64,000 nt of DNA from Luteitalea pratensis (GTDB lineage: Bacteria > Acidobacteriota > Vicinamibacteria > Vicinamibacterales > Vicinamibacteraceae): the NCBI RefSeq assembly GCF_001618865.1, contig NZ_CP015136.1, forward strand, positions 1,957,001 to 2,021,000, read 5' to 3'. The notes below the pieces were generated by a model that worked only from the letters and a program-made list of their open reading frames with translations, was not told the origin of the DNA and ran no database searches. Below are positions 3,117 through 16,905 of this stretch, piece after piece. How positions within the stretch are numbered: the first letter of the stretch is position 1; each line of letters starts with the position of its first letter. The translations under genes were made by a program, and so were the position numbers.

Positions 3117-5573
3117 TCACTCCGATCGGAGCGCGGTCAGCGGGTCAACGCGCGTCGCCCGCCACGCCGGGACTTGGCACGCAGCGACCGCAGTCAGCGC
3201 GAGCACGCCCGCGACGGCCGCGTACGTCACGGGGTCGGTCGGCGTGATCTCGAACAGCATCGTGCTCAAGAGCCGCGTCAGCAGCCCCGCCCCGATCAGG
3301 CCGATCACGAGCCCCGCCACGATCAGCCGCGCGCCCTGCCCGAGCACGAGGCGCGCAATGTCCCCCGGCTTCGCGCCAAGCGCCACTCGGACACCGATCT
3401 CCTGCGTCCGCAGCGTGACGACGTACGACATCACGCCGTAGATGCCGATCACCGCGAGCAGCAGCGCCGACCCTGCGAAGGCCGTGAGCAGCACCAGGCT
3501 GAAGCGGCGATCCGCCACCGATTGCCCCACGATCTGCCTGATGGTGCGGAAGCGCGGCGGAACGTCCGGGTCCAGCATGCGCACGATCTGGCCGGCACGC
3601 CCGATCAGGTCGGACGGCTCGCCAGTGGTGTGCGCGACGATCGTGAACGTCGCGACGCCACGCGGCCGCTGCCGCGCGTTGCCGTAGAACATCGGCGACG
3701 GGGCCGCTGCGATGCCGCCGTCGCGCGTGTCGGCGACGATGCCGACGATGGTGTACGGACGCAGGTCGCCGTCCATGTTGCCGTATTCGATCTGCAGGCC
3801 GATCGGATCGCGATCGGGCCAGCGGCTCTTCGCCAGCGCCTCGTTGATCACCGCCACGTGCGGGGCGTCGATCGTGTCTCGCTCCTCGAACAGCCGGCCC
3901 CGGATGAGGGGAATCCCCATTGTCTTGAAGTAGCCCGGGCTGGCGATGCGGAACTCCGCGCTGCCGGCCCGTTCCTTGTTGCGGATCATCGCGACAAACT
4001 CGTCGAAGTCCCGTGGCGGCGGTGTCCCGTTGAGGATCAGGAACCAGCCGTCGGCGCCGAACCCGGTCAGCGGGAACGCGTCGATGCCGCCGACCTCGGT
4101 CACGCCGGGCAGCGTGCGCAGCAGCGCCTGAATCTCGTCGTGGAACCCGATGCGCCGCCGGAGCAGCGCCTCGGCCTCGTTGCCAGCGCTGGCCGACCCG
4201 GCGAGTTCCATCGTGACGAGATGCTCCGTACGGAACCCGGTCCGCTGTTGCATGAGGTGCAGGAAGCTGCGCCCGAGCAGGCCGGCACCGATCAGCAGCA
4301 CGAGCGAGACCGCGAGCTGCACGACCACCAGCGCGCTGCGCAGGCGGCTCGACGCCCCACCCGCCATCGTCCGCTGGCTCTCCTTGAGCCGTGCGAAGGT
4401 GTCGGCCTTCATCGCGCGCGTGGCCGCGAGCACGCCGAGGAGCAGGGCGGTCACGAGGGAGACGGCGAACGCGAACGCGAGGACGGGCCAGCTCACGGCG
4501 ATGTCGTCGAGCCGCGGCAGGCCGCCAGGTTCCATCTGCAGCAGGCCGCGCACGCCCACGGACGCCACGAGCACGCCGAGGAGCCCGCCCGCGATGGCCA
4601 GCACGAACGACTCGCTGAGGAACGGCGTCAACAGCTGCACGCGGCTCGCGCCGAGCGCCGCGCGTACCGCCAGTTCGCGCTGGCGCGTCGTCGCGCGCGT
4701 CAACAGCAGGTTGACGACGTTGGCGCACGCGACGAGGAGGAGGCAGCCGACCGCGCCGAGAAGGATGAGGAGGAGCGGCCTGACGCGACCGACCAACTGA
4801 TCGTGCAGCGGCACGACTGCGACGTCCACCATCGTCGTGTCATCGCCGTATTGCTGCTTGAGCCGCTGCGCAATGCCGCGCAAATCGTTGCGCGCCTGCT
4901 GCAGTGTCGCCCCGTCGCGCAGGCGGCCGATGACGCGCCAGTTGTGCGCGGTGCGTGAAGGCAATCGCGGCTCCAGTTCGCGCGGCACCCAGAGCTGGGC
5001 GTCCGCGGGGACCCGGAATTCCTGCGGCATGACCCCGATCACGTCATAGGTCCGGTCATCGAACTTCAGGGTGATCCCCGAAAGGTCCGGATTGCTCCCG
5101 AGCTGTTCGCGCCAGAAGCCGTGGCTGACCAGGACCGCAGGATTGGCACCCAGTACCTGCTCGTCCGGCGTGAAGGCGCGGCCGAGCCGCGGCCGCATGC
5201 CGAGCACCCGCAGCATGTCGCGCGAGATCCCGGCGTACGTGACGCGAACCGGGCTCGCCCCGCCGGTGACCGACGTCACATTCACGGAGAACGCCGCCAT
5301 CGACTCGAACGTGTGGTTCTGGTCGCAAAGGTCGTCGTAGTTCGGGTCCGAGAACTGGCCCTGGGTGGTGCGCGCCGTGATCTGCCACAGCTGCATGATG
5401 CGATCGGGTTGCGGATACGGCAGCGGCCGGAGGAGCACGCCGTAGACCACGGTGTAGATGGCTGTGCAGGTGCCCAGTCCGAGCCCGAGGGTCAGGATCG
5501 CGACGGCGGTGAAGCCCGGGGTCTTGCGGAGGAGACGCAGCGCGTGCCGCAGGTCGTGCCAGATCTGGTACAT
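3117..5573 (-). CDS. ADOP-type ABC transporter permease (MacB/FtsX family)
   Basis: 818 residues from ATG 5573 (MYQIWHDLRHALRLL), the usual start of this family; the frame extends 11 codons further upstream without support. The N-terminal helix (near GFTAVAILTLGLGLG) is followed by a MacB-PCD-like periplasmic domain, three FtsX-like helices (residues about 270-400), then a second periplasmic domain and three C-terminal helices. This duplicated layout defines the acidobacterial duplicated orphan permeases (ADOP), predicted to act with a separate MacB-like ATPase in mechanotransmission or export. No ATPase gene is adjacent, which is typical for the group. Transcribed divergently from the multicopper oxidase. 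Confidence 0.92.
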   Translation of the reverse strand: MYQIWHDLRHALRLLRKTPGFTAVAILTLGLGLGTCTAIYTVVYGVLLRPLPYPQPDRIMQLWQITARTTQGQFSDPNYDDLCDQNHTFESMAAFSVNVTSVTGGASPVRVTYAGISRDMLRVLGMRPRLGRAFTPDEQVLGANPAVLVSHGFWREQLGSNPDLSGITLKFDDRTYDVIGVMPQEFRVPADAQLWVPRELEPRLPSRTAHNWRVIGRLRDGATLQQARNDLRGIAQRLKQQYGDDTTMVDVAVVPLHDQLVGRVRPLLLILLGAVGCLLLVACANVVNLLLTRATTRQRELAVRAALGASRVQLLTPFLSESFVLAIAGGLLGVLVASVGVRGLLQMEPGGLPRLDDIAVSWPVLAFAFAVSLVTALLLGVLAATRAMKADTFARLKESQRTMAGGASSRLRSALVVVQLAVSLVLLIGAGLLGRSFLHLMQQRTGFRTEHLVTMELAGSASAGNEAEALLRRRIGFHDEIQALLRTLPGVTEVGGIDAFPLTGFGADGWFLILNGTPPPRDFDEFVAMIRNKERAGSAEFRIASPGYFKTMGIPLIRGRLFEERDTIDAPHVAVINEALAKSRWPDRDPIGLQIEYGNMDGDLRPYTIVGIVADTRDGGIAAAPSPMFYGNARQRPRGVATFTIVAHTTGEPSDLIGRAGQIVRMLDPDVPPRFRTIRQIVGQSVADRRFSLVLLTAFAGSALLLAVIGIYGVMSYVVTLRTQEIGVRVALGAKPGDIARLVLGQGARLIVAGLVIGLIGAGLLTRLLSTMLFEITPTDPVTYAAVAGVLALTAVAACQVPAWRATRVDPLTALRSE

Positions 5574-7743: not shown

Positions 7744-8241
7744 TCACAGCGGGAGTTCGAACCAGAACGTGCTGCCTGCCGGCACCCCTGGATCGACGCC
7801 AATGGTGCCGCCGTGCGCCTCGATCGCGAGTTTGCAGAAGGCGAGACCCAATCCGACGGAGTTGTGAATCGAGGCCTGTCGAGTCTCGACCGTTCCGAAC
7901 TTCTCGAAGATCTTCTCCCTGGCGTCCGGGCGCACCCCGCGCCCCTGGTCGTGGACCGCCACACGCGCGTGGCTGTCGCCGCACGCGATCGAGATGCGCA
8001 CCCTGGCGCCCCTCGGCGAGTGCTTGAGGCCGTTGCTGACCAGGTTCTCGATGACCCTGCGGACGAGCGCGCCGTCGCAGGTCACATGCACGACCTCAGC
8101 GCTTTCGATGTCGATGGGTGGTACCTCCACGAGACTGGCCCCCAGTGCCGCGCACACATCGCGCGCCATCTGGGCCAGATCCCACACCGCCAGACTCACG
8201 GACATCCTGGCGGCTTCGAGCCAGACGATGACGGATGTCAT
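7744..8241 (-). CDS. HATPase fragment of a sensor histidine kinase
   Basis: 165 residues. An N-box (RRVIENLVSNGLKHSP), a G1 box (VHDQGRGVRP), an F-box-like KIFEKFGT and a G2 box (SVGLGLAFCK) identify the ATP-binding domain of a histidine kinase. The phosphoacceptor His domain, sensor and any membrane segment are missing: only about 25 residues precede the ATPase domain, and upstream codons in the same frame are low-complexity R/P-rich sequence. It may be a decayed kinase or a stand-alone ATPase module. No response regulator is adjacent. Confidence 0.65.
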   Translation of the reverse strand: MTSVIVWLEAARMSVSLAVWDLAQMARDVCAALGASLVEVPPIDIESAEVVHVTCDGALVRRVIENLVSNGLKHSPRGARVRISIACGDSHARVAVHDQGRGVRPDAREKIFEKFGTVETRQASIHNSVGLGLAFCKLAIEAHGGTIGVDPGVPAGSTFWFELPL

Positions 8242-9619: not shown

Positions 9620-10611
9620 CGCTCGCTGTCGAGCATCCGCATCTGGTGTTCGTCGTACCGTGTGCCGGCCACGGCCGATGGCGGCACGGCCTCTTCGAGA
9701 CGAGCGACGTCTGCTGGCGAGAGCTCGATCTGAAGCGCGTCGAGCGATTCGGTCAGTTGCGATCGCTTTCGCGCGCCGATGAGCGGCACGATGTCGGGAC
9801 CTTTCGCGAGCACCCAGGCAATAGCCAGCTTCGAGACCGTCACGCCCTTCTCCGACGCCAGTGTCTGCAACGCGTCAATCAGGCGTTGATTGCGCTCGCG
9901 ATTCTCTCCACGGAAGCGCGGGAGATGCGCGCGAAAGTCCCTGGCCGCACTGGGCTTGGAACCACTCAGCAACCCGCGCGACAGCACACCGTAGGCCGTC
10001 ACCCCGATGCCCAACTCCGACAGGAGCGGAAAGATCTGCGTCTCGGGCGAGCGGCTCACCAACGAGTACTCAATCTGGAGATCGCTGATGGGATGGACCG
10101 CCTGGGCGCGACGAATGGTGTCCGGTCCCACCTCCGACAAGCCGATGGCCCGCACGTACCCGGCCTTGACGAGGTCCGCGATCGCGCCGACGGTGTCCTC
10201 GATGGGCACGTTGGGATCGAGCCGGCCCGGACGATAGATGTCGACGTGGTCCAGGCCAAGGCGCGTCAGGCTGTACGCGAGAAAGTTTCTCACCGCGCTC
10301 GGCCGCGCATCCATGCCGAGCCAACTGCCGTCTGCCCCGCGCAGCGCCCCGAACTTGACCGAGACCAGCGCCTTGTCGCGACGATCGCGCAACGCTCGCC
10401 CGATCAGCAGTTCGTTATGCCCGGCGGCATAGTAGTCGCCGGTATCGAGCAGCGTGACCCCGGCATCGAGCGCCGCGTGAATCGTCGCGATGCTCTCGGC
10501 CTCGTCGGCTGGGCCGTAGAAATCGGACATGCCCATGCAGCCCAGGGCCAGCGGAAACACGACGGGACCGCTGGTCCCGAGTTGACGGCGCTGCGGTTGT
10601 GGCGAGTCCAT
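9616..10611 (-). CDS. Aldo/keto reductase
   Basis: 331 residues from ATG 10611 (MDSPQPQRRQLG); an extension to 10701 is open but lacks family similarity. It shows the (beta/alpha)8 aldo/keto reductase pattern: LGCMGMS, LLDTGDYYAAGHNE (Asp/Tyr of the catalytic tetrad), VSVKFG (Lys), then DIYRPGRLDP where many members have a His. The YRPxRxDP variant is a known subgroup. It would reduce carbonyl substrates with NADPH. It sits 67 bases downstream of pstB on the same strand, so pst readthrough is possible, and overlaps the epimerase gene by 4 bases. Confidence 0.88.
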   Translation of the reverse strand: MDSPQPQRRQLGTSGPVVFPLALGCMGMSDFYGPADEAESIATIHAALDAGVTLLDTGDYYAAGHNELLIGRALRDRRDKALVSVKFGALRGADGSWLGMDARPSAVRNFLAYSLTRLGLDHVDIYRPGRLDPNVPIEDTVGAIADLVKAGYVRAIGLSEVGPDTIRRAQAVHPISDLQIEYSLVSRSPETQIFPLLSELGIGVTAYGVLSRGLLSGSKPSAARDFRAHLPRFRGENRERNQRLIDALQTLASEKGVTVSKLAIAWVLAKGPDIVPLIGARKRSQLTESLDALQIELSPADVARLEEAVPPSAVAGTRYDEHQMRMLDSER

Positions 10612-10678
10612 GGCTCGAAGGTAGCGCGCCCGTGTGGCTTCGGCAAGACAAACAGCGAGGTATGGCGCTGTGCCGTCA

Positions 10679-11458
10679 CTAGCCGTAGCGGCCTTCGACA
10701 TAGTCGGCAGTGCGAGTGTCGTGCGGTGTGAGGAACAGCTGCTCTGTCCGCGTGTGCTCGACCACCTCGCCGAGCAACATGAACACGCATTCGTCGCTGA
10801 CCCGGCGAGCCTGCGACATGTTGTGCGTCACGATCAGGATCGTGAAGCGCTGCTTGAGGACAAACATCAGTTCCTCGACGGCGCGCGTGCCGGCGGTATC
10901 GAGCGCCGAGCACGGTTCGTCCATCAGGATCACGCTCGGCTTCAGCGGCAGCAACCGCGCGATGCACAGCTTCTGCTGCTGCTCCAGCTGCAAGCTCGTG
11001 GCGCGGGCGTGCAACCGATCCTTCAGGTCGGCCCAGAGTCCCACCTCGCCAAGTGCGGTCTCCACGGCCTCGTCCAGCACCGCGCGGGTGAGTTGCTTCC
11101 GATCCGCGTGGACGCGCAAGCCGAAGACTACATTTTCGTACACGGAGATCGGCAGCGGGTTCGGGCGCTGGAACACCATGCCGACGGCCTTGCGCAATGC
11201 CACCAGCGAGACCTCTGGGGCGTAGATGTTCTGCCCGAGGACCTCGATCGCGCCCGTCGTACGGACGTAGCCGTAGCGCTCGTTCACCCGGTTGAAGCAG
11301 CGCAGCAGCGTCGACTTGCCGCAGCCAGACGGGCCGATCAACGACGTGATCAGCTGCGGACGGATCCGGAGCGACACGTCCCGCAACGCCTGGAAGTCGC
11401 CATACCAGAGGTTGAGCGCACGCGTCTCGATACCGAAGGCGGCCGGAGCGCTGCTCAT
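10679..11458 (-). CDS. pstB: Phosphate ABC transporter ATPase with degenerate signature
   Basis: 259 residues. It has Walker A GPSGCGKST (42-50), Q-loop Gln97 (MVFQRPNP), Walker B with catalytic Glu (ILMDEP, E181) and H-switch His212 (VTHNM). The ABC signature LSGGQ is replaced by SLQLEQ at about 155-160. PstB pairs form the motor under PstC/PstA for high-affinity phosphate import. The start overlaps the previous ATPase gene (ATGA). Because its defects complement those of the neighbouring ATPase (10-12 kb), a PstB heterodimer with one good and one poor ATP site is inferred. Confidence 0.92.
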   Translation of the reverse strand: MSSAPAAFGIETRALNLWYGDFQALRDVSLRIRPQLITSLIGPSGCGKSTLLRCFNRVNERYGYVRTTGAIEVLGQNIYAPEVSLVALRKAVGMVFQRPNPLPISVYENVVFGLRVHADRKQLTRAVLDEAVETALGEVGLWADLKDRLHARATSLQLEQQQKLCIARLLPLKPSVILMDEPCSALDTAGTRAVEELMFVLKQRFTILIVTHNMSQARRVSDECVFMLLGEVVEHTRTEQLFLTPHDTRTADYVEGRYG

Positions 11459-12216
11459 CCGAAGATCCCGCTCACGTAGTCGTACGTGCGCCGGTCGCCA
11501 GGCTTGTCAGAGAACACCAGCGCGGTGGTCGCGAGTTCGACGATCTCGCCGTCGAGCAGGAACATCGTCCGGTCGGCGAGGCGTCGCGCCTGCTGGGTGA
11601 GATTGGTCACCAGGATGATGGTCATCTCGGCCTTGAGGCGCTTGAGCACGTCCTCGATGCGCATGGTCGTGACCGGGTCGATGGCAATCGAGAACTCGTC
11701 AAGACAGAGGATGCTCGGCCTGTGCGACAGCGCCCTGGCGATCGTCAGGCGCTGCTGCTGCCCTCCGGAGAGCTTGGTGCCAAGGCTGTCGAGCCTGTCT
11801 TTCACCTCGTCCCACAGCGCCGCCTGCGTCAGGCAGCGCTCCACGAGCTCGTCGAGGTCAGAGCGCGCGGTGAGGCCCGCCGCACGAGGGGCGAACGCGA
11901 CGTTGTCGTAGATCGAGAGAGGCAGGCCCACAGGAAGGGGTGCCACCATCCCGATCTTGCGGCGGAGCGCGTAGACATCGCGCGTGCGATGGATGTCCTC
12001 GCCGTCCACCTCGACGAGGCCTTGCATCCGCGCCCCGGGGGTGAACTCCAGCGTGCGATTCAGGCACCGCAGCATGGAGGTCTTGCCCGACTGCGCCGGA
12101 CCGATGACGCCGAGGATCTCTCCACGCCGCACGTCGAAGGAGATTCCATGGAGCACCTCCGTGGTCCCGTACCGGATCCGGAGGTCATGCACCCGAATGA
12201 CCGACGCCGCGCTCAT
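11455..12216 (-). CDS. pstB: Second phosphate ABC ATPase, Q-loop and H-switch altered
   Basis: 253 residues from ATG 12216; the much longer open frame upstream is a shadow of pstA. Walker A is GPAQSGKT (39-46), the signature is intact (LSGGQQQR from 149), and Walker B is LCLDEF with Glu174. The Q-loop Gln is replaced (MVAPLP, Pro93) and the H-switch His is Asn205 (VTNLTQQ). In a dimer it would lend its good signature to the partner's good Walker site, while its own site would be impaired. It lies 11 bases after pstA and overlaps the next ATPase gene by 4 bases. Confidence 0.92.
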   Translation of the reverse strand: MSAASVIRVHDLRIRYGTTEVLHGISFDVRRGEILGVIGPAQSGKTSMLRCLNRTLEFTPGARMQGLVEVDGEDIHRTRDVYALRRKIGMVAPLPVGLPLSIYDNVAFAPRAAGLTARSDLDELVERCLTQAALWDEVKDRLDSLGTKLSGGQQQRLTIARALSHRPSILCLDEFSIAIDPVTTMRIEDVLKRLKAEMTIILVTNLTQQARRLADRTMFLLDGEIVELATTALVFSDKPGDRRTYDYVSGIFG

Positions 12217-12227
12217 GCCGGTGCCGC

Positions 12228-13112
12228 CTACCACTTCTTGCGGTTGCGCAGGACCGCGCGGAGGACCACCGCAGTGGAGTTGATGAGGAGCACGGCGCCC
12301 ACGAGCACCGTCGCCGTGGCGAATTGTAGCGAGTCGGGCGCGCCGTTGATCTGGGTCGCCAGGTTGTAGAGGTGCGTGGCCAGGGCCATCGCGCTTTCGG
12401 TGAGTCGGTACGGGAACAAATCGCCCTTGTCGACGACCTTGTACATCACAGCGCCCGTGAAGAGGATCGGCGCCGTTTCCCCTGCCGCTCTCGAGACCTG
12501 CAGGATCACGCCCGTCAGGATGCCGCTGATGGCGTTGGGCAGCACCACGCCTCGGATCGTCTGCCAACGCGTGGCGCCGACGTTCCAGCAGGCCTCCCGG
12601 AAGGAGCGCGGAACGGCCGCGAGCGACTCGCGGGTGCTTGCGATGATCACGGGGAGCGTCATGACGGCCAGGGTGAGCGAGGCCGCCAGGATCGACTGCC
12701 CGAGCCCGGCGGCGAGCACGAAGGCGCCGAGCCCGAAGAGTGCATGGACGATGCTGGGCACGCCGGCGAGGTTGATGACCGCCACGTGAATGAGTCGTGT
12801 GAACCACGTGTCGCGCGCGTACTCGTTGAGGTAGACGGCCGCGAGCACGCCAACGGGCGCCGCGATGGCCAGCGAGACGCCGACGAGATAGACCGTCCCT
12901 ATCAGCGCCGGCCAGATGCCGCCCTTCGTCTGCATGTCGCGTGGTGGTTCCAGCAGGAAGGCGATCGAGAGCGAGGGCCACCCCTTCACCACGAGGTACC
13001 CGAGAATCGCGAACAGCGGCAGGACGATGCACAACGTCACCGCGCCCAGCACCACGTTGGCGATACGGTCGTGCCTGAGTCTGCGGAGGACCTCCGGGCC
13101 AGCCTCGAACAT
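12228..13112 (-). CDS. pstA: Phosphate ABC transporter permease PstA
   Basis: 294 residues with six predicted membrane helices. A cytoplasmic coupling loop, SFREACWNVGATRWQT, matches the EAA motif of binding-protein-dependent permeases, and GETAPILFTGA near the C-terminus is typical of PstA. It forms the membrane channel with PstC. The ATG at 13112 lies 3 bases from the end of pstC, indicating co-translation. Confidence 0.95.
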   Translation of the reverse strand: MFEAGPEVLRRLRHDRIANVVLGAVTLCIVLPLFAILGYLVVKGWPSLSIAFLLEPPRDMQTKGGIWPALIGTVYLVGVSLAIAAPVGVLAAVYLNEYARDTWFTRLIHVAVINLAGVPSIVHALFGLGAFVLAAGLGQSILAASLTLAVMTLPVIIASTRESLAAVPRSFREACWNVGATRWQTIRGVVLPNAISGILTGVILQVSRAAGETAPILFTGAVMYKVVDKGDLFPYRLTESAMALATHLYNLATQINGAPDSLQFATATVLVGAVLLINSTAVVLRAVLRNRKKW

Positions 13113-13115
13113 GGC

Positions 13116-14039
13116 TTACCTGCGGCGCACGCCGCGCACCACGAGATCGGCGGCGAGGTTGACCAGGAACGTGATGCCGAAGAGGAGCACGCCGATGGCA
13201 AAGAGCACGCGGTAATGTTCCGAGTCCTTGCTCACCTCGCCCATCTCCGACGCGATGTTGGCGGTCAGCGTGCGTACGGGATCGAGCAAGCCGCCCGGAA
13301 TCTGCACCGCGTGCCCTGTGGCCATCAGCACGGCCATCGTCTCACCCACGGCGCGCCCCACGCCGAGCAGCACCGCCGCCAGCAGGCCGTTGCGCGCTCC
13401 GGGCAGGAGGACGCGGTAGACCAGTTGCCAGCGCGTCGCGCCCAGCGCGATGCCGGCTTCACGGTACGAGTCGGGCACGGCCTTGAGCGCGTCCTCGCCG
13501 ATCGAGACGATGATCGGCAGGCTCATGAGCGCGAGCAGGAGTCCGGCGTTGAGCGCGTTCAGGCCCACCGCCGCGTCGAACACCGTGATCAGCAACTGGT
13601 TCACGACGGTGAGGCCGAGGAAGCCCCACACCACCGACGGGATGGCGGCGAGGAGTTCGATGACGACCTTCAACGTCTCGCGCACCTTCGGCCCGCAGAA
13701 CTCTGACAGGTAGATGGCCCCGCCGATGCCGAACGGCACCGCAATGGCCATGGCCAGCGCGGTCACCGCGAGCGTGCCTACGATCATCGCGAGCACGCCG
13801 TAGCGAACGTCGGTCACCGAGGTCGGATACCACTCGACGCTGAAGAGGAACTCGCCCAGACTGAAGTTGGGGCTGGCCAGCACGGGGAGCGCTTCGCGGA
13901 ACACGAAGAAGAAGATTCCCCCCACCAGGATCACGGCGCTGATGCCGCACACCGTGATCAGCGCCTCGATCCCGCGCTCGGCGGCCAGCGAATGCCACGA
14001 CCGCCGGAACCCGATCGAGCCTGGCGCGCCCTCGGTCAC
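13116..14039 (-). CDS. pstC: Phosphate ABC transporter permease PstC
   Basis: 307 residues from a GTG at 14039 that overlaps the pstS stop (GTGA); the frame is open further upstream but only as an antisense shadow of pstS. Six helices, an EAA-like loop SYREAGIALGATRWQL and the GRAVGETMAVLMATG signature identify PstC. The N-terminal cytoplasmic tail (about 25 residues) precedes the first helix ALITVCGISAVILVGG. Partner of PstA in phosphate import. Confidence 0.94.
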   Translation of the reverse strand: MTEGAPGSIGFRRSWHSLAAERGIEALITVCGISAVILVGGIFFFVFREALPVLASPNFSLGEFLFSVEWYPTSVTDVRYGVLAMIVGTLAVTALAMAIAVPFGIGGAIYLSEFCGPKVRETLKVVIELLAAIPSVVWGFLGLTVVNQLLITVFDAAVGLNALNAGLLLALMSLPIIVSIGEDALKAVPDSYREAGIALGATRWQLVYRVLLPGARNGLLAAVLLGVGRAVGETMAVLMATGHAVQIPGGLLDPVRTLTANIASEMGEVSKDSEHYRVLFAIGVLLFGITFLVNLAADLVVRGVRRR

Positions 14040-14971
14040 GGGTGGACCTCGCTCGGGCTCGGCGGTGCGGGGACGGGACCGGTTTCCGAAGCGGGGAGCG
14101 GCACATAGCCGACGGCCGACACGATACGCTGCCCGGGCGGCGAGTGGATCCAATCGAGGTAGCGTTTCGTCTCGCCCTCGGGCTGGCCGACCGTATACAT
14201 GTAAAGCGGCCGCGCAATCGGGTAGCTCCTGTCGAGCGTCGCCTGGACGGTCGGCGCCACCGGTGGTCCGCCTTCCCGTGACAACGACAACATCTTCACA
14301 CCCGGGGTGGCGTAGCCCATGCCGCTGTAGCCGATGGCGCACGGCGTGTGGGCGACCAGTTCCACGACCTCCTTGGACCCGTTGAGTTCCAGCGTGCCGA
14401 GCTTGAAGTCGTGCTTGTCGAGGGCCGCCTCGCGGAAGAAGTCGTACGTCCCCGAACTCGACTGGCGGCTGATGCGGATGATCGTGTCGCGCGGGCAGGC
14501 GTCATGGCGAACCCCGAAGTCGGACCACCGCGAGATGCGCCCACCCTCGGCGAACAGGTCCCGCAACTGTTCGAGGGTCATCGACTGCACGGGATTCTTC
14601 GCATGGACGTAGACGACCAATGCGTCGTAGCCGGTGACGTGCTCGACCGGGTCGGCGCCGCGCGCGGTCCGCGTCGCTTCCTGCTCGGCCGGCTTCATCG
14701 GCCGACTGCTGTTGGCGATCTGTACCGTGCCGTCGATCAAGGCCGCAATGCCCACTCCCGACCCGCCGCCGGCGACCTCGACCGACACGCCTGGTGCGAC
14801 CTTCGCGTACTCCTCGGCCCAGGCCTGCGCCACGTTGATCATGGTGTCGGAACCGCGATTGAGCAGCACCGTCCGTTCCGAGGCCGTGCTGCGTTGGCAG
14901 GACGCAGTGCCGAGCGCAGCCAGCGCGAGCGCGCCAGCAGCCTGCAGACGACGGGCCAGGAGGGACGCCAT
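14036..14971 (-). CDS. pstS: Phosphate-binding lipoprotein PstS
   Basis: 311 residues from ATG 14971 (MASLLARRLQAAG). The signal peptide ends in a lipobox-like LGTASC, so the mature protein is probably a lipoprotein. The phosphate-binding signatures GSDTM, GGGSGVGIAALIDG and SSGTYDFFRE are all present. It delivers phosphate to PstC/PstA. The start lies 5 bases from the end of the phoU-fusion gene and the stop overlaps the pstC start. Confidence 0.94.
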   Translation of the reverse strand: MASLLARRLQAAGALALAALGTASCQRSTASERTVLLNRGSDTMINVAQAWAEEYAKVAPGVSVEVAGGGSGVGIAALIDGTVQIANSSRPMKPAEQEATRTARGADPVEHVTGYDALVVYVHAKNPVQSMTLEQLRDLFAEGGRISRWSDFGVRHDACPRDTIIRISRQSSSGTYDFFREAALDKHDFKLGTLELNGSKEVVELVAHTPCAIGYSGMGYATPGVKMLSLSREGGPPVAPTVQATLDRSYPIARPLYMYTVGQPEGETKRYLDWIHSPPGQRIVSAVGYVPLPASETGPVPAPPSPSEVHP

Positions 14972-14976
14972 GTGCG

Positions 14977-16080
14977 CTAGTCCTGGCGAACGATGGCCTC
15001 GACCAGGTCCTGCAGGTGGTTGCGGATGACGGCAAACGCGTCCTCGTACGCCTGGCGGGTCTCGGCCAGCGTGCCGGGCAGATCGGACGGGTCCTCGACG
15101 TGCCAGTCGAAGACCACGGTCGGCGTCCGGCGAACGCGCAGCCACGTATAGACGTCAGTGTCGAAGGACACCACCACGTGGTAGACCTCGAGGTTCGGGA
15201 TCTGGTCCAGCGACTTGGGGCGGTGGTGATCGATGATGTCCAGCCCCTTCTCCGCCAGGAACTCCGCCAGTCGCGGGTCGATCGGGCTGGGCTCGAGCCC
15301 CGCGCTGCTGAAGATGAGGCGGGGGTGCGCCACGGTGGTGGCGATGGCCTCCGCCATCTGGCTGCGACAGTGGTTGTGCTCATCCACGAACAGGATGCGG
15401 AACGCCTCGGGCGCCTTGTGCTTCGCGAAGTCGCCCGTACACATGTAGAGCGTTTCGGCGCACATGTTGCGGATTTCGTCGGCGACCCGCTCGATGCGGC
15501 GACTGACCGTGGAAAGCAGCGCATACGCCTCGAGCCCGAACTCGCCCGCGGCTTGCCTGCGCATCAGGTCCTTGTCGATTCGCTGACGCATCTTGTTGAC
15601 CGTCCGCTCGGCCGCCATCGTGTTGCGGGCAAGTTCGGCGTCAGCCTCGAGGAACGCCCGGACGCCGTCCTTCAGCATCGCGAGTGCAGCTTCTCCCATC
15701 TCGGCAAAAGGCTCGGCGTGAATGTCGGGATGAACCTCGTGCAGCTTCAGGACCCGGCGAGCGACGCCCTCGGCGTGGTCACCGATGCGCTCCAGTTCCG
15801 TGCTGATCTTCAGGGCGGCGAACGCGAAGCGCAGGTGCCCGGCAGCCGGCTGCTGCCGCACGAGGAACTCCAGCGCGAGACGATCCAGTTGCTGCTCGAG
15901 GTCGTCGATCCGCTCGTCACGCAGGATCACCAGGTAGGCGGACTGCTGCTTGCCGTTCACGAGTGCATCGAGCGCGCCGCGTACGGCCCGCTCGCACTGA
16001 CCTGCCATTTCCTTGACCGCCTGGCGGATCAGGTTCATGTCGTGCTGCAGGCTCGCTTCGAGCTGGCTGCCCATCGTCAT
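14977..16080 (-). CDS. phoU: PhoU fused to inactive ArsC/LMW phosphatase-like domain
   Basis: 367 residues from ATG 16080 (second ATG at 16074). Residues 1-215 are a PhoU two-repeat helical domain (ELERIGDHAEGVARR and RRIERVADEIRNMCAE are the metal-binding repeats). After a short linker, residues about 228-345 fold as a low-molecular-weight tyrosine phosphatase/ArsC domain: ILFVDEHNHCRSQMAEA, then GLDIIDHHRPKS and VFDWHVEDPSD. The P-loop nucleophile, Cys in CxxNxCRS, is Asp233, so phosphatase or arsenate reductase chemistry should be lost. PhoU links Pst to the PhoR sensor; the extra domain may bind phosphate or arsenate as a sensor. First gene of the pst operon. Confidence 0.9.
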   Translation of the reverse strand: MTMGSQLEASLQHDMNLIRQAVKEMAGQCERAVRGALDALVNGKQQSAYLVILRDERIDDLEQQLDRLALEFLVRQQPAAGHLRFAFAALKISTELERIGDHAEGVARRVLKLHEVHPDIHAEPFAEMGEAALAMLKDGVRAFLEADAELARNTMAAERTVNKMRQRIDKDLMRRQAAGEFGLEAYALLSTVSRRIERVADEIRNMCAETLYMCTGDFAKHKAPEAFRILFVDEHNHCRSQMAEAIATTVAHPRLIFSSAGLEPSPIDPRLAEFLAEKGLDIIDHHRPKSLDQIPNLEVYHVVVSFDTDVYTWLRVRRTPTVVFDWHVEDPSDLPGTLAETRQAYEDAFAVIRNHLQDLVEAIVRQD

Positions 16081-16104
16081 CGCTTTCGGATTGGAGTACG
16101 CCGA

Positions 16105-16122
16105 TGTAACAACCGTATGACG
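16105..16122 (-). promoter_or_regulatory. Candidate Pho box upstream of the phoU-pst operon
   Basis: Reading on the minus strand, CGTCATA-CGGT-TGTTACA lies 25 bases before the first ATG of the operon. It resembles two TGTCATA-type half-sites in an 11-base repeat, the layout bound by PhoB response regulators. The second half matches only partly and the box lies close to the start codon, so this is tentative. Confidence 0.35.
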
Positions 16123-16226
16123 AGGCGTGTTGGTAACCCAGCTCGATCGAGCGACGCGAACGATGTGCCGAGCGGGGCGCACCGCGTGCTCGTTGATACT
16201 CTAACCGCAGTTCGCGTGACGTGCCG

Positions 16227-16457
16227 ATGCCGAACATGTCGAACACATCGACGACTCTTGTCGAGCTTCTGGCTGCCGTCGTCGCCGACGAAGCCGAGGC
16301 GGTGCGGCTCGTACGAGCGATGCCCGAGATCGCTGCGGCGCGCGTCGGCGACGAGCGCCTGGTGGAGGAAGTGCCGCATCAGTTGTACCTCGGAGATACG
16401 GCACTCCATCTCGCGGCGGCCGCAATCCTGCCGCTCGCGGCCCCGGTCAACAGTTGA
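16227..16457 (+). pseudogene. N-terminal stub of an ankyrin-repeat protein
   Basis: 76 codons from ATG 16227. The stretch LVEEVPHQLYLGDTALHLAAAA is the opening of an ankyrin-repeat protein in which GDTALHLAAA starts the first repeat, but it stops a few residues later where further repeats would be expected. Another ankyrin piece, lacking its beginning, lies at 23066-23269. Divergent from phoU, with about 146 bases between. Confidence 0.55.
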
Positions 16458-16512
16458 CGTGACGGATCGTTCTACACGGCGAACGTCGGACTCACCGCTG
16501 CTCCTTCTTGCG

Positions 16513-16774
16513 TCACTTCTTGCTCGGGGCCGATGGCTGCGACGCGTCCTCCTTCTGGACCGAAGGCGTGGCCGCATCGTTCAGGCCACCTTCGGCGAGG
16601 TTGGTCAGGCGCCTGTTGGCAGCCGTCTCTTCGTCCAGGTTCGGTTGCAGCGGGCCGACCGCCTCGGTATGCCCCATAGCCTGAGCCCACGCAACCAGAC
16701 AGTTGGCGCTCAGCGTCGTAGCTATCGCGCAGCTCGTGAACGAACGCATCGTGCAGCGTGCCTGTGTTGGCCAT
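16513..16774 (-). pseudogene. YciE/DUF892 ferritin-like gene with internal deletion and frameshift
   Basis: The N-terminus from ATG 16774 reads MANTGTLHDAFVHELRDSY and then DAERQLS; in another frame the C-terminal part reads LVAWAQAMGHTEAVGPLQ and ends at 16513. Both halves align with the intact 194-residue paralog at 63269-63853 (MAEAGTLHDAFIEELKDTY ... VAWAQAMGHTEAV). About 100 codons holding the ferritin-like core are deleted and the frame has shifted. A dead copy. Confidence 0.8.
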
Positions 16775-16905
16775 GGCTCTCCCCCGGATCACCGACTGGT
16801 CGATGCTGGGCGGCGGCGAGGGACGCCAGCGCGAACGAGCCAATCGCCGCAACAGCGGGGGAGGAAGACCGTTCGCCTCATCTCGCTCCATCGGGCGAGG
16901 CTCGC

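Follow-up and report, generated by a model that had tools for sequence, protein, structure and literature searches.

A PhoU protein fused to an ArsC-fold domain without its catalytic cysteine, and a PstB pair with complementary motif lesions, in a pst operon of Luteitalea pratensis and its relatives

PhoU proteins couple the Pst phosphate transporter to the PhoR kinase, and an E/D-x-x-x-D motif marks each PhoU repeat. The protein described here is encoded in a window of 64,000 nucleotides (the whole stretch of DNA analysed) from Luteitalea pratensis, contig NZ_CP015136.1. It resembles the PhoU family (TIGR02135) in scoring over the family cut-off, in having two repeats and in its place in a pst operon, and differs by a further ~143 residues of ArsC fold and by a second motif whose Glu (E197) is found in 11/20 members of its clade. 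The added domain shares with the LMW phosphatases and ArsC proteins (PF01451; B. subtilis 1jl3, Synechocystis 2l17) the fold, the N, C, R and S of the loop, the SAG motif and, in the window protein, the Asp-Pro of the acid loop. Unlike them, it has Asp for the nucleophile Cys, lacks the partner cysteines and is fused to PhoU.

Phosphatase folds that are used without, or apart from, catalysis have been described in other phosphatase families of eukaryotes. One review gives tensin 1 as a Cys to Asp pseudophosphatase (PMC8269279). In PRL3-CNNM3, a phosphatase fold acts on an ion transporter apart from catalysis, with an Asp of the partner in the active site; mutation of the loop Arg of PRL3 abolished CNNM3 binding, and exchange of the catalytic Cys for Ser or Glu strongly decreased it (PMC5427921). 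PRL3 retains its Cys and requires its Arg to bind the partner, whereas in our clade the Cys is replaced by Asp and 14/20 members are without the Arg. Thus, the likeness is one of principle and not of detail.

Paired, non-equivalent nucleotide-binding domains and operons with two pstB genes also have precedents. One study covers fused importer ATPases with one degenerate ATP site, RbsA and NupO of B. subtilis, and a model of the B. subtilis Pst in which PstBA and PstBB form a pair (PMC11466899). The tandem PstB1 and PstB2 of E. faecalis are reported to have all four motifs in both proteins, and the 2025 genetic study of them states that tandem pstB paralogues had not previously been the subject of a published study (PMC12096839). 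In the window type, by contrast, the lesions are complementary and lie in separate phosphate-import ATPases. A literature search, with most subscription papers beyond its reach, found neither a PhoU-ArsC fusion nor a degenerate PstB described.

The features of the locus are given in Table 1. The fusion gene starts with an ATG at 16080 and stops at 14977-14979 on the - strand; a GTG at 16182 is an alternative, longer start. Pfam finds two PhoU stretches in the protein (E 4.8e-33), the NCBIfam PhoU model TIGR02135 scores 157.3 bits (cut-off 130.25), and the E/D-x-x-x-D motif is present in both repeats. The Pfam LMWPc match follows at residues 229-359 (E 3.6e-9, 37.4 bits, cut-off 23.2). The NCBIfam arsenate-reductase models TIGR02689 and TIGR02691 are far under their cut-offs (45.8 vs 157.6 bits and 37.1 vs 174.3 bits, respectively).

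Table 1. Features of the fusion gene and its operon, in positions of the window.
Feature	Coordinates	Strand	Evidence or remark
PhoU with C-terminal pseudo-ArsC domain	14977..16080	-	367 aa
PhoU part (~residues 12-222), E97-R-I-G-D101 and E197-R-V-A-D201	15415..16047	-	
ArsC/LMWPc-fold domain (residues 225-367)	14980..15408	-	Asp233 at nucleophile position
PstS, phosphate-binding protein	14036..14971	-	TIGR02136, 220.3 bits, cut-off 206.6
PstC permease, start uncertain	13116..14042	-	Operon place and relatives; Pfam BPD_transp_1
PstA permease	12228..13112	-	TIGR00974, 272.3 bits, cut-off 193.45
PstB1, start inferred	11455..12216	-	LSGGQ intact; Q-loop Gln to Pro, H-loop His to Asn
PstB2	10679..11458	-	Walker A/B, Q- and H-loops intact; LSGGQ to LQLEQ; 320.7 bits, below PstB cut-off 343.2

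The loop of the window protein reads V-D233-E-H-N236-H-C238-R239-S240. Profile alignments to solved arsenate reductases, Synechocystis ArsC 2l17 among them, place D233 on their loop Cys, so that the catalytic Cys of the C-x5-R motif is absent and the loop Arg is present. These alignments and the Pfam match confirm the initial annotation, which had read the gene as PhoU fused to an ArsC/LMW-phosphatase domain without its catalytic Cys; the loop residues it listed as retained are found as N236, C238, R239 and S240. Ser259-Ala-Gly and Asp330-Pro331 are kept as well. Cys238 is the sole Cys of the domain, and the extra redox cysteines of arsenate reductases are absent. With one Cys and no nucleophile, neither LMW phosphatase chemistry nor the ArsC thiol relay is expected, going by the established chemistry of these two families. 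ILFVDE was also considered as a possible sign of a receiver domain; this was ruled out because Pfam gives LMWPc and no receiver match.

The structure predictions agree with this assignment. The AlphaFold2 model of the domain alone (four sequences) has a pLDDT of 87.9, and its best Foldseek match is the ArsC of B. subtilis (E 7e-10). VIA-align superimposes it on Deinococcus ArsC2 (8p6m) with a Z of 19.5 and an rmsd of 1.8 over 131 residues. As modelled, the domain has the ArsC fold. A full-length model from two sequences reached a pLDDT of 36.8 and was set aside.

Whole-genome searches covered one phylum, in which 396 genomes were searched for fusions and up to five candidates per genome were scored. 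They contained 21 full-length PhoU-ArsC fusions in 20 genomes, and all 21 were translated and aligned; a fusion fragment at a contig edge (G036) is excluded from this count. No extra fusion appeared when 60 of the 396 genomes were searched again with every candidate scored (limit E 1e-34). A single scan of genome contigs gave one close relative, in the same-genus MAG Acidobacteria bacterium Ga0077522. The nucleophile position is occupied by Asp in 19 of the fusions, by Ser in one (G229) and by Cys in one (G117).

In the PhoU tree a 100/100 branch sets apart the 20 fusions without Cys, which are referred to here as the clade. G117 falls outside it, and its branch is long and marked by the program as uncertain. 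The domain tree has the same split at 100/99 and groups G117 with an unfused enzyme at 91/82. Because it lies outside the clade and beside an unfused enzyme, G117 seems to have been fused independently, with its enzyme motif intact. The initial annotation had asked whether the Asp is fixed in homologs. It is, by descent, in 19/20 of the clade, and the contrary case that it had named, of most fusions retaining the Cys, did not occur. The change from Cys to Asp most likely arose in the common ancestor of the two diverged clades into which the 20 fall. The G117 gene itself (L052 9900-10988, - strand) has Cys and Arg intact, adjoins pst genes and is accompanied by a PstB with a normal LSGGQ; by its motifs it is possibly an active phosphatase or reductase joined to PhoU.

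Conservation within the clade is uneven. Asn236 is kept in 19/20 members and Ser240 in 17/20, Ser259, Ala260 and Gly261 in 19/20 each, and Trp326 in all 20. Arg239 is found in only 6/20, all of them within the nine-member clade that contains the window protein; in the other 14 the position is occupied by L, A, Q, V or P. The Asp-Pro of the acid loop is kept in 7/20, and the residue after Asp233 is Glu in half of the members and Q, R or S in the other half. In the PhoU part, E97, D101 and D201 are each present in 20/20. In bovine LMW phosphatase, Asn and Ser take part in the hydrogen bonding that gives the loop its shape. Since this framework and the Asp are kept and the Arg is not, the framework and the Asp appear to be selected and the oxyanion-binding Arg does not.

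The unfused relatives are different. Cys and Arg are both in the loop of 31/31 distinct unfused LMWPc relatives read from the same phylum, the 31 being the unfused genes that the searches returned and not the phylum's whole LMWPc set. Among the unfused domains read from a domain-profile search of the same genomes (up to 10 candidates per genome, limit E 1e-18), none has Asp. One unfused LMWPc gene, in G000 (L066 ~4849-5216, - strand; C1:3758849-3759216), consists of two overlapping matches in different frames, with loop Cys and Arg, and is either a broken gene or a sequencing error.

The ArsC-like domain is under purifying selection. Its dN/dS is 0.12, 0.19, 0.18, 0.10 and 0.27 in five pairs, and the PhoU part of the same pairs gives 0.11, 0.12, 0.14, 0.08 and 0.26, with some of the synonymous distances being high. 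The Asp conservation, both trees and these ratios led us to reject the idea of a single gene decaying neutrally. The Pfam LMWPc match fades in the more diverged clade; of five clade members scanned, two are above the cut-off, two are below it and one has no match at E 0.01. In the loss of the nucleophile by descent and the retention of the fold under selection, the domain resembles a pseudophosphatase.

The fusion gene heads a compact operon and is followed by PstS, PstC, PstA, PstB1 and PstB2, with an aldo/keto reductase gene downstream of PstB2. All 20 clade fusions adjoin pst genes. In 17/20 the contig contains the two PstB genes in full, and the contigs of the other three stop earlier. The genome of the window has a second, ordinary pst-phoU operon, whose ORFs show one PstB with normal motifs. 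Of 19 genomes with a clade fusion, eight have no PhoU-domain match other than the fusion (several of the assemblies are incomplete), which is thus probably the sole PhoU there. A scan of the whole window with a Pho-box consensus gave seven matches against 3.6 expected; none lies between 8247 and 27203, and therefore none in or just upstream of the operon. A sigma-70 promoter scan of 10000-16800 found none, with 0.7 expected.

Two other features of the window are worth recording. An ORF of 165 aa (7744-8241, - strand) has a Pfam histidine-kinase ATPase domain and no other kinase part, and is possibly a truncated kinase on this domain content. A DUF892 (YciF-like) remnant lies at 16475-16777 (- strand). 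It matches profile positions 1-20 (weakly, E 0.008) and 114-158 (E 5e-8) in adjacent pieces in different frames, and the middle is missing.

The two PstB proteins, a pair that the initial annotation did not mention, carry complementary lesions, and we found this in 27/27 pairs read. PstB1 has LSGGQQQR in 27/27, the H-loop His is replaced by Asn in 27/27, and the Q-loop Gln by Pro in 26 and by Ala in one. PstB2 has lost LSGGQ in 27/27, with LQLEQQQK or LSLE[EQ]QQK in 21, and retains Walker A in 27/27, the Q-loop Gln in 27/27 and the H-loop His in 26/27 (Tyr in G049). Three PstB entries were missed by the pattern, and their motifs were read by eye. By motif, a PstB heterodimer is predicted to have one complete and one dead ATP site. 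In G068 a third PstB-like ATPase lies beside the pair (L099 600-1352, - strand) and has lost the signature and the H-loop His.

Eighteen of the pairs are from fusion operons (17 plus that of the contig-edge G036). The operons of the other nine lack the fusion; four of these have a separate PhoU gene, and five have no PhoU match in the ~19-20 kb read. As the asymmetric pair occurs without the fusion, the asymmetry is independent of the dead domain. Family f51 has 14 genomes listed with the PstB2 type, of which four were read. L102-L104 and L106 of this family (in G220, G190, G347 and G276) are asymmetric PstB operons with no PhoU match nearby. In G220 and G190, the two genomes checked further, a PhoU lies ~12 and 16 kb downstream. 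A midpoint-rooted tree of the PstB pair has two changes between fused and unfused. It fits a tentative order in which the asymmetry came first and the fusion arose a single time, with loss or replacement in some places afterwards.

We also searched mobile elements. Fifteen plasmid records match the whole fusion at E 1e-15 or better, and none of them covers 80% of the query; viral contigs searched with the whole fusion gave no match. With the domain alone as query, matches below 60% identity were obtained in 33 plasmid records (E up to 1e-5) and in 10 phage records (E 5e-6 to 0.4). Few of the domain-only matches shown are annotated, mostly as arsenate reductases or LMW phosphatases.

The initial annotation had proposed that the domain may sense phosphate, arsenate or a phosphotyrosine without turning it over; through this loop, any such sensing should require the Arg. 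The loop of such a non-catalytic oxyanion sensor would bind phosphate or arsenate and tell PhoU-Pst the cytoplasmic level, and Asp233 would be the proton acceptor for the monoprotonated anion, a role that the Asp of the binding site has in phosphate-binding proteins. The ArsC fold and the pst operon setting argue for it, as do the Asn, Arg, Ser and acid-loop Asp-Pro of the window protein, and we know of no agreed direct phosphate sensor in PhoU signalling. The joint presence of Arg and Asp-Pro in 5/20 of the clade is also in its favour. Against it, Arg is lost in 14/20 while Asp stays in 19/20, and an Asp puts negative charge where the anion should sit. The better conservation of Asp than of Arg weakens the sensor reading for the family, for which it is a poor fit and on the whole unlikely. 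Oxyanion sensing may apply to the members with Arg, the window protein included. It also seems rather improbable that the P-loop phosphatase domain was rebuilt, by Cys to Asp, as a ligand-reading switch of PhoU, a direct gauge of cytoplasmic phosphate (or of phosphate versus arsenate) that would gate a Pst importer whose asymmetric ATPase has one dead site.

The near invariance of an Asp at the phospho-cysteine site could also point to changed chemistry, with Asp233 as a phospho-acceptor that forms an acyl-phosphate, receiver- or HAD-like, in a phosphotransfer switch. An acidic residue follows it in half of the clade (Glu 10/20); the Q, R or S in the other half leaves no conserved acidic pair, the Arg is lost in 14/20, and the window protein has no Pfam receiver or HAD match, so that we consider this extremely unlikely. 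Drift of the more diverged clade far from LMWPc (judged from the five clade members scanned) and a domain identity below the PhoU identity in several pairs (e.g., 50 vs 72 percent in G354-G236) are what one would see if the domain were a decaying passenger from an enzyme fusion, with no role of its own. That is very unlikely given a dN/dS of 0.10-0.27, the near-complete retention of Asp, Asn, Ser259-Ala-Gly and Trp326, and the profiles of the two clades, which still align with each other over 142 columns.

The reading that we favour, as probable on balance, is that the dead ArsC-fold domain is a docking or allosteric module on PhoU in an asymmetric Pst system. PhoU would have gained an ArsC-like domain, whose nucleophile Cys then changed to Asp. 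PstB1 and PstB2 would pair into an asymmetric ATPase, with a working site made of the Walker, Q and H motifs of PstB2 and the LSGGQ of PstB1, and a dead site made of the PstB1 Walker motifs without Q and H and the degenerate PstB2 signature. The PhoU part would control this transporter and Pho signalling like other PhoU proteins, and the dead domain would dock a partner, for which the likeliest candidates are the PstB pair and a histidine kinase. The Asp carboxylate may fill the place of the thiolate and the bound anion, satisfy the loop amides and fix the loop in a shape like the anion-filled one. In broad outline, a pseudophosphatase would here control a transporter, much as CNNM is regulated by PRL phosphatases. 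We infer the partner docking, the heterodimer and the regulation by the fusion from these sequences and motifs. Against the docking reading, the retention of Asn and Ser and, in the window protein, of Arg and the acid-loop Asp-Pro would suit a loop that can still bind something, one clade member has Ser instead of Asp, and the asymmetric PstB pair also occurs apart from the domain.

It is still debated by what means PhoU reads phosphate and communicates with Pst, and what the intracellular phosphate sensor of the PhoU-Pst pathway is. If the gauge reading were true, the fusion would be a built-in phosphate sensor in this pathway. With a dead phosphatase domain joined to PhoU, beside a pst operon with complementary PstB lesions, the clade is a tractable system. 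It would let one measure directly what a fixed change from Cys to Asp does in an ArsC loop, and it would allow Pst to be examined as an asymmetric importer with one hydrolytic site.
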